Assembly (NCBI RefSeq): GCF_001545155.1
Contig: NZ_CP014226.1
Location: 3,693,175-3,706,157 of the forward strand
Origin: Halomonas chromatireducens
GTDB taxonomy: Bacteria; Pseudomonadota; Gammaproteobacteria; Pseudomonadales; Halomonadaceae
DNA: 12,983 nucleotides
Reading direction: 5' to 3'
Shown here: one piece after another, positions 1 to 12,983 of the stretch
Layout: each line of letters opens with the position of its first letter
Numbering within the stretch: the first letter of the stretch is position 1
Program-made: the position numbers and the translations under genes
Notes under the pieces: generated by a model
What the model was told of the DNA's origin: nothing
What the model saw: only the letters and a program-made list of their open reading frames with translations
Databases searched by the model: none

Positions 1-93
1 GTCGGCCAGGCGTGCGACCATCCGGTCTCGGGTTCGCTGCGATGTCATGCCCACCCCGCGCAGCAGCTCGGGCAGTTGTTCAGGTGAATGCAT
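1..93 (-). CDS. pcm: Protein-L-isoaspartate O-methyltransferase, N-terminal fragment (partial, runs off the window)
   Basis: Only the first 31 codons are inside the window. The segment [16 protein letters not shown] matches the N-terminus of bacterial Pcm proteins (Pseudomonas Pcm begins with MTSQRTR). Pcm uses S-adenosylmethionine to methylate isoaspartyl residues in damaged cytosolic proteins. Two in-frame ATG starts are possible: position 48, immediately before MTSQRTR, and position 93, giving an extra [16 protein letters not shown] prefer 93, because AAGG sits 8 bases upstream and the added residues read like coding sequence, whereas the ATG at 48 has no good ribosome binding site. With start 93 the gene overlaps the end of surE by 14 bases. 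surE-pcm is a conserved gammaproteobacterial pair, which supports the call despite the short length. The methyltransferase motifs lie outside the window. Confidence 0.8.
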
Positions 94-9223: not shown

Positions 9224-10240
9224 ATGATCCCGTCACGCCTGCGAGTCCTGCTCGACGAGACCGATGGCCAGCGTCAGTGCGAATGGGCCGGCCGCCCCGT
9301 GTGGCTGGCTCGCGAAAGCTGGGGCGAACTTGCCGTCTGCCTGCAGGGCGCCCAGGTACTTCACTATTTACCGGCGCCGCTCTCTAGAGCGTCCGAAGCC
9401 ACGCGCACGCGCGCCCACACTGCCGAAGCCGCGCGCACGGCCAGCGCGTCCGACGACACGCGAGCTGACACCGATGCTGCCGGCCCGGTCGAGCAGGAAG
9501 AGGCGCTGGTGCCCGGCGGCTGGCTGTGGGTGACGCCGACGCCGCAGCCGCTGCCCAGCGCCATTCGCGGCGGCATCCCGCTGTGCTGGCCCTGGTTTGC
9601 CGATGACAGGGGCGCCGACGAGACACCGGACCGGTCGGGGCCCTTCCACGGCCCGGCGCGCAAGGCCGATTGGCGGCTGGACGCAGTGGATGAACATGAA
9701 GAGGGCATCGAGCTGCACCTCTCTCCCACCGAGCCCCTGCATACCCAATTGGCCCCCCGTGCGGTGATACAGGCCAACGCCCGCCGCCTGCACGTGGAGT
9801 TGATCACCGAGCATGTCGGCGAGACCCCGGTCAAGCTGAGCGGCGCCCTGCATACCTACCTCGCCGTGACCGACAGCTTCGCCTGTCGCCTGGAGGGGCT
9901 GGCCGGGGCCCGCTATCTGGACAAGCTGTCCGGCTTCGCCGAGCGCGATCAGCAGGGCGAACTCGCCGTGCGTGGCGGCCTCGACCGCATCTACCACACC
10001 AATGCCGAGCTGACTCTCGACGATGGCAACCGGCGCCTGCGGGTCGCCCGCCAGGGCAGCGACTCCGCTGTGGTCTGGCATCCGGGCGAGGCGCCACCCG
10101 ACGATACGCCGGCCGGGGCCTCGTGCCGCTTCCTCTGCGTGGAATCGGCCAATACCCGCCTGGACCCGGTGTGGCTGGTACCCGGTGCCCAGCACCTGCT
10201 GGGAACCACAATCTCTCTGGCGAAGCCGGATACGGCCTGA
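9224..10240 (+). CDS. D-hexose-6-phosphate mutarotase, YeaD type, with a low-complexity insertion
   Basis: An aldose 1-epimerase-like enzyme that interconverts anomers of glucose 6-phosphate, fitting its place after glk. Family blocks are WGELAVCLQGAQVLHYLP (residues 33-50), WLWVTPTPQPLPSAIRGGIPLCWPWF (100-125), GPFHGPARKADW (139-150, conserved His H142), LSGALHTYLAV (205-215, H210), GGLDRIY (251-257) and FLCVESANT (303-311, probable catalytic Glu E307). The protein has 338 residues, compared with about 270-300 in the family. The surplus is a hydrophilic, Ala/Thr/Arg/Asp-rich stretch at about 53-95 between the first beta strands, encoded partly by an imperfect repeat. The core sequence and active-site residues remain, so it is probably functional. 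AAGGAG (9213-9218) precedes the ATG. It lies 19 bases after glk and 38 before the kinase gene. Confidence 0.9.
   Translation: MIPSRLRVLLDETDGQRQCEWAGRPVWLARESWGELAVCLQGAQVLHYLPAPLSRASEATRTRAHTAEAARTASASDDTRADTDAAGPVEQEEALVPGGWLWVTPTPQPLPSAIRGGIPLCWPWFADDRGADETPDRSGPFHGPARKADWRLDAVDEHEEGIELHLSPTEPLHTQLAPRAVIQANARRLHVELITEHVGETPVKLSGALHTYLAVTDSFACRLEGLAGARYLDKLSGFAERDQQGELAVRGGLDRIYHTNAELTLDDGNRRLRVARQGSDSAVVWHPGEAPPDDTPAGASCRFLCVESANTRLDPVWLVPGAQHLLGTTISLAKPDTA
9389..9466 (+). repeat. Imperfect triplicate (about 30-nt period) inside the mutarotase insertion
   Basis: Three related 21-base stretches start at 9389, 9419 and 9446, spaced 30 and 27 bases apart, both multiples of three. They share a CCGA(A/C)G(C/A)C(A/G)CGCG core. 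The encoded peptides are SEATRTR, AEAARTA and SDDTRAD. The spacing keeps the frame, consistent with expansion by slippage in a tolerant surface loop. Identity is moderate, especially in the third unit. Confidence 0.55.
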
Positions 10241-10278
10241 GGCTTTCGCTTGCTCCAACAGCCAACGAGGATACCTTC

Positions 10279-11238
10279 ATGACCCCCGTGATCGCCTTCG
10301 GCGAGGCCCTCGTCGACATGCTCTCCAGCCGCCTCGGCGACGCCACCGAGGGCCCCGAGACCTTCACACCCTATGCCGGCGGCGCCCCGGCCAACGTAGC
10401 CGTGGCCTGCGCCCGACTGGGGGTTCCGAGCCGTTTTCTCGGCATGCTGGGTGATGACTACTTTGGCGATTTCATCGCCACGGAGCTTGCGTCCCACGGT
10501 GTCGACCTCTCGGGCACGGCACGTACCCGCGAGGCGCGCACGGCACTGGCCTTCGTCTCCCGCGACGCGGCGGGCGAGCGCACCTTCGACTTCTACCGGC
10601 CGCCGGCCGCCGATCTGCTGTATCGGCTCGAACACCTGCCGGCAGGGATCTTCGCCCACCCCGCCATCGTGCACTTCTGTACCAACAGCCTGACCGAATC
10701 CAAGATTGGCGAGACCACCCTGGCCATGGCCGACATGGCCAATCGTGCCGGCTGCCTGGTCAGCGTGGACGCCAACCTCCGGCACAACCTCTGGGAGAGC
10801 GGTGTCGCCGACATCACCCTGACCACCCGCCTGCTCGACCAGGCCGGGCTGGTCAAGCTCTCAACCGATGAACTCGACTATCTGCGTGGCGACCACCCGG
10901 TGGAAGCCTGGCTGGCCGAGCGGCTTGCCACCGGCGTGAAGCTGATCGTGATCACCGATGGAGCGGGCCCGGTGCGAACACTGGGCGTTGGCAGAGACTT
11001 CCGGATCACGCCACCCAAAGTGCAGGCCGTGGATACCACCGCCGGCGGTGATGCCTTCATCGGCGGCCTGCTGGCGGAACTGGCCGAGCGGGGTATCGAA
11101 GGTGACTGGCACCAGGATGACGCCTTCCTCGAACGAGCCGTCAAGATTGCCTGTCACTGTGGCGCCCATGCGGTCACCCGCCCCGGCGCCTATGCCGCGC
11201 TGCCGACCCGTGAGGACCTGGCCATGCTGCGTGGCTGA
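10279..11238 (+). CDS. PfkB-family sugar kinase, probable fructokinase
   Basis: A 319-residue ribokinase/PfkB-fold kinase. The N-terminal VIAFGEALVDM (residues 4-14) and first PfkB signature YAGGAPANVAVACARLG (32-48) are typical of fructokinases. DANLRHNLW (164-172) and KLSTDELDYL (193-202) follow, and the C-terminal signature VDTTAGGDAFIGGLL (251-265) holds the catalytic Asp D258. The anion-hole motif is AGGD rather than the commoner GAGD. The likely reaction is fructose plus ATP to fructose 6-phosphate, but 2-keto-3-deoxygluconate or another sugar cannot be excluded by eye. The frame stays open upstream, into the end of the mutarotase gene. I chose ATG 10279 because GAGG lies 8 bases before it and the family N-terminus begins there. 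It closes the edd-glk-mutarotase-kinase operon. Confidence 0.88.
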   Translation: MTPVIAFGEALVDMLSSRLGDATEGPETFTPYAGGAPANVAVACARLGVPSRFLGMLGDDYFGDFIATELASHGVDLSGTARTREARTALAFVSRDAAGERTFDFYRPPAADLLYRLEHLPAGIFAHPAIVHFCTNSLTESKIGETTLAMADMANRAGCLVSVDANLRHNLWESGVADITLTTRLLDQAGLVKLSTDELDYLRGDHPVEAWLAERLATGVKLIVITDGAGPVRTLGVGRDFRITPPKVQAVDTTAGGDAFIGGLLAELAERGIEGDWHQDDAFLERAVKIACHCGAHAVTRPGAYAALPTREDLAMLRG

Positions 11239-11307
11239 CGCTGTTTAAGCTATCGTCGTCATAGCAGAAAATAGCTATACAAAAATGATCACTAGCGGTA
11301 CAAAAGC

Positions 11308-11341
11308 TGTACATAACGTAAAATCGTTGCGCTTATGTACA
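11308..11341. promoter_or_regulatory. Inverted repeat upstream of the chemoreceptor gene, possible operator
   Basis: TGTACATAA (11308-11316) and TTATGTACA (11333-11341) form perfect 9-bp arms around a 16-base spacer, ending 20 bases before the start codon at 11362. A further GTACA at 11298-11302 pairs with TGTAC at 11308-11312 across 5 bases, giving three GTACA-type half sites in the AT-rich gap 11239-11361. TAAAAT (11319-11324), a good -10 match, falls inside the spacer, so a bound protein could block transcription. The regulator is unknown, and no convincing -35 was found. The palindrome could instead form a hairpin in the 5' leader. Confidence 0.4.
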
Positions 11342-11361
11342 ACTTTACTGTGAGATCATGA

Positions 11362-12983
11362 ATGCGACAGAACGGCCCGGTAACCCAGTCGGAGTATCTT
11401 CTTCAAGACGATGATGTCCTCATCTCCAAGACCGATACACGCAGCATCATCACTTATGCCAATCAGCGCTTCATCGACGTCAGCGGTTATGACTACGAGG
11501 AATTGCATGGAGCCCCACACAACCTGGTGCGTCATCCAGACATGCCACCCAGCGTCTTCGCCGACATGTGGCATGATCTTCAGACAGGAGAGTTCTGGTC
11601 CGGCCTGGTCAAGAACCGGCGCAAGAACGGAGATCACTACTGGGTCAGAGCCAACGTGGTTCCCATCCGCGAAAACGGTGAACTCAAGGGTTTTGCCTCC
11701 ATACGTGTCAAGCCGAGTGCCGCAGAAACCACTCATGCCGAAGCGGTCTATCGTGACATCCGTGAAAACGGCGGACGCTACACGGTCAAGCACGGACGCC
11801 CTTATCGGCGCGGTGCCCTGCATGCGGTGAAGCGCATCGATTGGCGCAGCCTCTCCACACGAAGCTTGTTCGCTAGCCTCGCCATCGCCGTGCTGCCTGC
11901 CGCCCTGGGTATGACCGCCTGGAGCGCCATGACACCTTCGGCATCACTAATTGACGAAGGGGTGCTCGCCTCAGGGGTTCTCGGCGGCATTCTGCTGGCT
12001 TGGCTGAACTGGAAAGGCAACGCCAGGATGCGCCGCTTGCTCCACCAGGCCCACGACTTTTCATTGCAGGTCGCGGCCGGCAACCTCAAGGCTGATCTGC
12101 CTGTCCAGCGCCATGATGAGCTGGGCCGCATGCTCGGCTCGCTGGCCTTCATGCGCCAGTCCCTGGGAGCACTGATCGGCGACCTGGAACGCCGCATCGG
12201 CGTGGTCGAGCCTGCGGTCACGGACCTTGTGCGAAACAACGACGCCATGGCCAGCCGGCTCGAGCAACAGGCATCGGCGGTACAGGAAACCGCCGCCAGC
12301 GCCGAGCAGATCACCGCCACGGTAAGCCAGAGTGCGGAGCATGCCCATCAAGCCGGTGAGGTGACTTTCGGCAGCGTAACAACGGCTGACCAAGCCGCCG
12401 AGGTGATGCAGAGACTGGCAACGTCGATGCAGGAGATCACTCGCCAGGCCGATAACATGGCCAGTATCGTCGGCACCATCGACAGCATCGCTTTTCAGAC
12501 CAATATCCTGGCCCTCAACGCCTCGGTGGAAGCCGCCCGTGCCGGGGAACATGGGCGAGGCTTTGCCGTTGTCGCGCAAGAAGTCCGCAAGCTGGCCAGT
12601 GAATCAGCAGGCGCTGCTCATCGTGTGCAAGACTTGATCAACACGGCGCGAAAAGAAATCGAGGCGGGCCGGTCACATGCCGGAGAAGCGGAAGATACCA
12701 TGACGGCGATCAAGGCAGCCAGCCACCGCGTCAACGGGTTGATGCAGGAAATCAGTGCCGCCGCCGCAGAGCAGAGCCAAGGTATCGAGCAGATCAGCCA
12801 GGCCATCGGCGAGATAGACCAGGCAACCCAGACCAGCGCCGACAGCATGCAGGTCGCGGATGCCGTTGGTCGTTCCCGTGCCCAGGTGGCCAACCTGCTG
12901 CGTCTGTTGACGCTGGATCCGGAAGTGCAGACCCTGCTCGAACGCGGCGACCTGGACATGGGGCATGCCCGGGCCCTGCTGGC
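11362..12983 (+). CDS. aer: Aer-type PAS chemoreceptor fused in frame to a ParB segment (partial, no stop in window)
   Basis: 540 codons are visible. Residues 1-120 form an Aer-like FAD-binding PAS domain: [23 protein letters not shown] (54-62) with R57, H58 and D60 at the same numbers as E. coli Aer, and [16 protein letters not shown] (84-99). Two hydrophobic stretches at about 168-189 and 200-216 give a membrane hairpin, followed by a HAMP-like linker. The signalling domain carries [20 protein letters not shown] (376-395) and [17 protein letters not shown] (396-412), the CheA/CheW-contacting tip. Such receptors report redox or energy state to the chemotaxis system. At about residues 494-500 the last helix of the receptor stops and ParB sequence begins, still in frame. 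The ATG at 11362 is preceded by an in-frame TGA, so it is the earliest start; its ribosome binding site (GAGA) is weak. The first 120 or so bases after the start region are only about 50% GC. Confidence 0.9.
12850..12983 (+). other. parB: ParB-like central segment (helix-turn-helix region) within the chimeric frame
   Basis: From about codon 497 the frame reads [20 protein letters not shown], then [22 protein letters not shown] to the window edge. This is the ParB/Spo0J helix-turn-helix and the following conserved L.MGHARAL block, the chromosome-partitioning protein region that binds parS. The N-terminal CTP-binding domain of ParB (GERR motif), which should precede it, is absent; chemoreceptor sequence stands there instead. 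The helix-turn-helix copy itself looks undamaged. The exact joint cannot be placed better than about 12847-12870, because MQVADAV could belong to either parent. Confidence 0.88.

Follow-up and report, generated by a model that had tools for sequence, protein, structure and literature searches.

The apparent chemoreceptor-ParB fusion of Halomonas chromatireducens AGD 8-3 is almost certainly an assembly artefact

An open reading frame of Halomonas chromatireducens runs from an Aer-like chemoreceptor into part of the partition protein ParB. Judged from the sequence, this receptor-ParB fusion is almost certainly an assembly artefact and not a real feature (probability about 0.98). The reading draws on an intact source gene, a displaced receptor C-terminus that overlaps the receptor piece, Ns at the two contig edges, a foreign tip on either side of the break and the gene order of a sister species. 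The preliminary description of this DNA had held an assembly join to be at least as likely as a real fusion; that view was borne out, as a chimera at a contig end, whereas neither a real fusion nor the longer shared string proposed for the joint stood up.

The joint and the sources of its two parts

The window, i.e., the whole stretch of 12,983 nucleotides analysed, corresponds to G000:C1:3693175-3706157 of a single 3,973,651-base record. Its last open frame (11362-12981, plus strand) stays open up to the window end. Pfam matched this frame to PAS_3 (residues 31-112), HAMP (217-268), MCPsignal (339-488, E = 2.2e-41) and HTH_ParB (488-540, E = 2.5e-14), and the domain order PAS, HAMP, MCP signalling is as expected of an Aer-like receptor. 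In an NCBIfam scan, no Aer model scored above cut-off for the frame and a general PAS domain was the sole family named; 'Aer' is the name used in the preliminary description, which we adopt here as an assumption. The features discussed below are as follows.

11362..12851, plus strand: genuine part of the Aer-like PAS-HAMP-MCP receptor (codons 1-496 and two bases of codon 497), from Pfam, from DNA that is 91% identical to the sister species as far as 12851, and from a protein 93% identical to the B. montanilacus receptor
12787..12851, plus strand: overlap where the two true receptor parts meet, 65 bases identical to G000:C1:2457083-2457147, from BLAST and exact extension
12849..12851, plus strand: joint between receptor and parB, 3-base microhomology GCA, from exact extension from both sides
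12849..12983, plus strand: probable misjoined contig tip, an exact copy of parB nucleotides 501-635 (135 bases), from exact extension against the intact gene
1..1, no strand: left contig edge; G000:C1:3693174 is N, preceded by the 5' end of a gene for pyruvate kinase, from the sequence of the flank
12983..12983, no strand: right contig edge; G000:C1:3706158 is N, followed by the 3' end of that pyruvate kinase gene, from the sequence of the flank

Exact extension showed that the identity to parB runs from window position 12849 to the last base, and that the identity to the other receptor copy stops at 12851; the receptor and parB thus overlap by just 3 bases, GCA. The string CAGGTCGCGGATGCC, previously suggested to be shared at the joint, is parB sequence that is not common to the receptor. 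The two reading frames agree at the joint, an outcome with a one-in-three chance for a random join. Together, Pfam and exact extension confirmed the in-frame change from the receptor to the ParB helix-turn-helix segment described near residue 497. The contig continues for 132 bases past the joint and ends where the N stands. By its letters, the 135-base tail is too long and too exact for a chance match.

A complete parB, encoding 304 amino acids, is present at G000:C1:3966872-3967786 (minus strand), about 261 kb from the window. The gene order around it is mnmG-rsmG-parA-parB-atp, the neighbours being genes that we take, from their translations, to be mnmG, rsmG, parA and atp; this is the second, intact copy that the preliminary description had proposed to look for. 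Its product contains ParB_N, HTH_ParB and ParB_C in Pfam, and the NCBIfam scan identified a ParB partition domain. Compared with this chromosomal ParB, 43 residues of the window frame are identical to residues 169-211, whereas ParB_N and ParB_C are missing from the frame and its HTH domain is partial. In agreement with the earlier account, the N-terminal CTPase domain (PF02195) was absent from the window frame in the Pfam scan; the C-terminal dimerisation domain (PF23552) was likewise absent as far as the window reaches, and both were found in the intact copy. Searching the organism's own genome for the ParB HTH domain returned three matches; two of them are the intact parB and the window tip, and the third scored below the family cut-off. 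The last is a weak match in a 238-aa frame (G000:C1:2781969-2782160, L017).

The rest of the receptor gene was found on another contig, from G000:C1:2457083 onward, 1.25 Mb from the window. It shares 65 identical bases with the window (12787-12851; BLAST and exact extension), reads SYQAATASLEREVSALAHSAGAFSG...REWETF beyond this overlap, and is followed by genes that, from their translations, are presumably eda, pgl and zwf. Separate loci for the two genes had been named beforehand as an outcome that would point to an artefact; indeed, the same assembly has parB intact in one place and the C-terminus proper to the receptor in another, which argues against a real fusion.

The contig carrying the receptor rest starts after an N at C1:2456931 and has a foreign tip of 151 bases. 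This second chimeric tip (L011 2433-2589, G000:C1:2456932-2457088) comprises 157 bases identical to C1:1025481-1025631 and the sequence just beyond it, that is, 151 bases before the joint and 6 shared ones, with the microhomology GAGCAG to the receptor gene. Its source, C1:1025481-1025631, belongs to an unrelated frame of 195 aa. Each edge of the receptor break thus bears a foreign tip, and the two tips come from different genes.

The receptor and its tail in relatives

Billgrantia montanilacus PYC7W (G005) has one uninterrupted receptor of 562 amino acids ending in EWETF. Window positions 11219-12851 aligned with L048 5735-4102 of this species (91%), and the displaced rest of the receptor (L011 2584-5501) aligned with L048 4166-1268 (86%); in B. 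montanilacus both pieces are contiguous as one gene, which runs into eda, pgl and zwf. Residues 1-497 align with this Aer-like receptor over their full length. The true Billgrantia members go on with SYQAATASLE...EWETF (B. montanilacus) or similar tails, whereas the window copy continues with parB. Elsewhere in the region, B. montanilacus has about 6.9 kb of extra sequence between a fructokinase-like gene and the receptor (window 11204-11219) and about 0.9 kb before the fructokinase-like gene (window 10220-10266).

The true receptor C-terminus (L011 2584-2844) ends in EWETF, which we take to resemble the NWETF-type pentapeptide by which some receptors tether the methyltransferase CheR. Similar endings occurred in 6 of 25 relatives' tails (the best 25 of 80), namely EWETF and EWAEF twice each, EWDSF and EWSEF; the others were unlike.

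For a wider comparison of receptor loci, the best 80 of 583 confirmed loci, from named genomes, were used. The window parB segment had no match in these 80 loci (tblastn, E up to 0.01), and no ParB tail was present among the receptor tails read, those of the best 25 of the 80. At the protein level, residues 440-540 matched 1029 of 2303 candidates. Among the 120 of these 1029 that were listed, 6 had an MCP domain and 114 a ParB HTH domain; none had both PF00015 and PF17762, and the homologues of the same architecture that had been sought were not among them. Three of the six MCP matches (P0001, P0002 and P0003) contained no ParB domain in a Pfam scan. The receptors P0003, P0007 and P0011 aligned over 85% of residues 440-540 with 67-69% identity, again with no ParB domain in the Pfam listing.

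Consistently, window positions 12760-12983 found some match in 88 of 90 genomes of the genus (best 8 candidates per genome scored), and among the matches listed G000 alone covered the whole joint stretch. The other listed matches stayed to one side of the joint, or else crossed it by short local matches. The accessible parts of the literature found on such a fusion named no receptor-ParB fusion.

Contig edges and the published assembly

The published genome of H. chromatireducens AGD 8-3 (CP014226; 3,973,651 bp), termed both draft and complete, was sequenced as 150-bp Illumina pairs that were merged with PEAR and assembled into 247 SPAdes contigs; the contigs were ordered on H. elongata by CONTIGuator and gaps were closed with GapCloser (PMC4796137). 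The record consists of a single contig of 3.97 Mb, and its completeness is estimated at 99.99%. A single N stands at each window edge (C1:3693174 and C1:3706158), and the 54,658 bases of the organism's own sequence that were examined contain five Ns, all single. From the Ns at the edges and the published method, we infer that the window corresponds to one assembled contig. A masked stretch was also considered as the cause of the Ns; their one-base size, the misordered contig edges and the published gap closing would speak against it.

A single pyruvate kinase gene flanks the window, with its 5' end on the left and its 3' end on the right; the 3' end was named from its translation, and we assume this identity. 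The body of the gene lies some 300 kb off at C1:3390716-3392109 (L052 2217-3610), on a contig of 1394 bp enclosed by two Ns. This contig overlaps both flanks exactly, by 219 bases on the left and 156 on the right, and the three pyruvate kinase pieces are continuous in B. montanilacus (L140 2176-3738, 3513-4918 and 4755-10603). Because pieces of a gene that is continuous in the sister species flank the window, the window contig has been set inside another gene. The 1394-bp contig with the pyruvate kinase body is misplaced.

At L050 2255-2381 (G000:C1:1938754-1938880), the first 127 bases of a pyruvate kinase gene follow a gene that is presumably a glycerate kinase-like gene. A 4-base overlap, with no N, joins them to a sequence whose counterpart in the sister species is about 40 kb distant. 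This joint is probably another misjoin, and the 5501 bases around it contain no N. SPAdes can also use k-mers of this length, 127 bases.

Alternative readings and the likely origin of the joint

A real partial duplication, in which a piece of parB was inserted or recombined into the receptor and left this strain with a truncated receptor or a receptor-HTH fusion, would fit both the frame kept over the joint and the exactness of the parB piece. However, the tail stops exactly at the N of the contig edge, and the true receptor C-terminus with its 65-base overlap at another contig edge is not what a real insertion predicts. Further against it, the eda-pgl-zwf neighbours follow the other receptor piece, as they do in the sister species, and we consider such a duplication highly improbable. 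A recombination confined to part of the culture, with a parB fragment behind the receptor beside the normal receptor gene, is likewise very unlikely.

That the frame encodes a true fusion protein, in which a membrane redox receptor is followed by a module that binds parS, is suggested by Pfam matches to both families in one open frame. Yet the ParB part lacks the CTPase and dimerisation domains of the intact copy, the same architecture was seen in 0 of the 120 matches listed (of 1029) and in 0 of the best 80 of 583 loci, and all evidence for a chimeric contig end counts against it, making it extremely improbable. Equally, the occurrence of a 65-base receptor stretch twice in the assembly could be taken to mean two receptor copies, a normal one beside eda and a second fused to parB. 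The shared stretch, however, is just 65 bases long, and a second N-terminal part was not found in the organism's own genome, where the other matches to residues 1-180 had at most 48% identity and belonged to other receptors or PAS proteins. A foreign tip, directly preceded by an N, opens the second piece, and both pieces tile a single gene of the sister species; the chance of two copies is accordingly minute.

The assembly artefact, by comparison, would have arisen at a contig end. In the proposed sequence of events, the receptor contig ends in a chimeric tip that passes at codon 497 into 135 bases of parB over the 3-base microhomology and stops at a one-N gap. The contig end was probably extended by a chimeric short read, a falsely merged read pair or a wrong gap-filling read, and the foreign tips in general may stem from any one of three sources, namely chimeric reads, faulty merging of reads and the gap closer. 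The pseudo-chromosome would then have been made by laying the contigs along the genome of another species.

The receptor-ParB joint thus carries, in all likelihood, no biological weight and is a caution for users of this genome. Although its estimated completeness is 99.99%, some contigs of the record are out of order and some end in chimeric tips. Close to its single Ns, one should not rely on the gene fusions, broken genes or gene order that it shows, and at least one joint that is probably false has no N nearby.

The joint lies near a contig edge, its source genes are intact or completed elsewhere, and the receptor of B. montanilacus is unfused, as in an assembly chimera. Set against misjoined contig ends of the kind that would be expected from SPAdes, CONTIGuator and GapCloser, no differing feature was seen. 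The features in common are a short foreign tip at a contig edge, single-N gaps, microhomologies at the two joints (one of 3 bases, the other of 6), intact source genes elsewhere and misplaced contigs.
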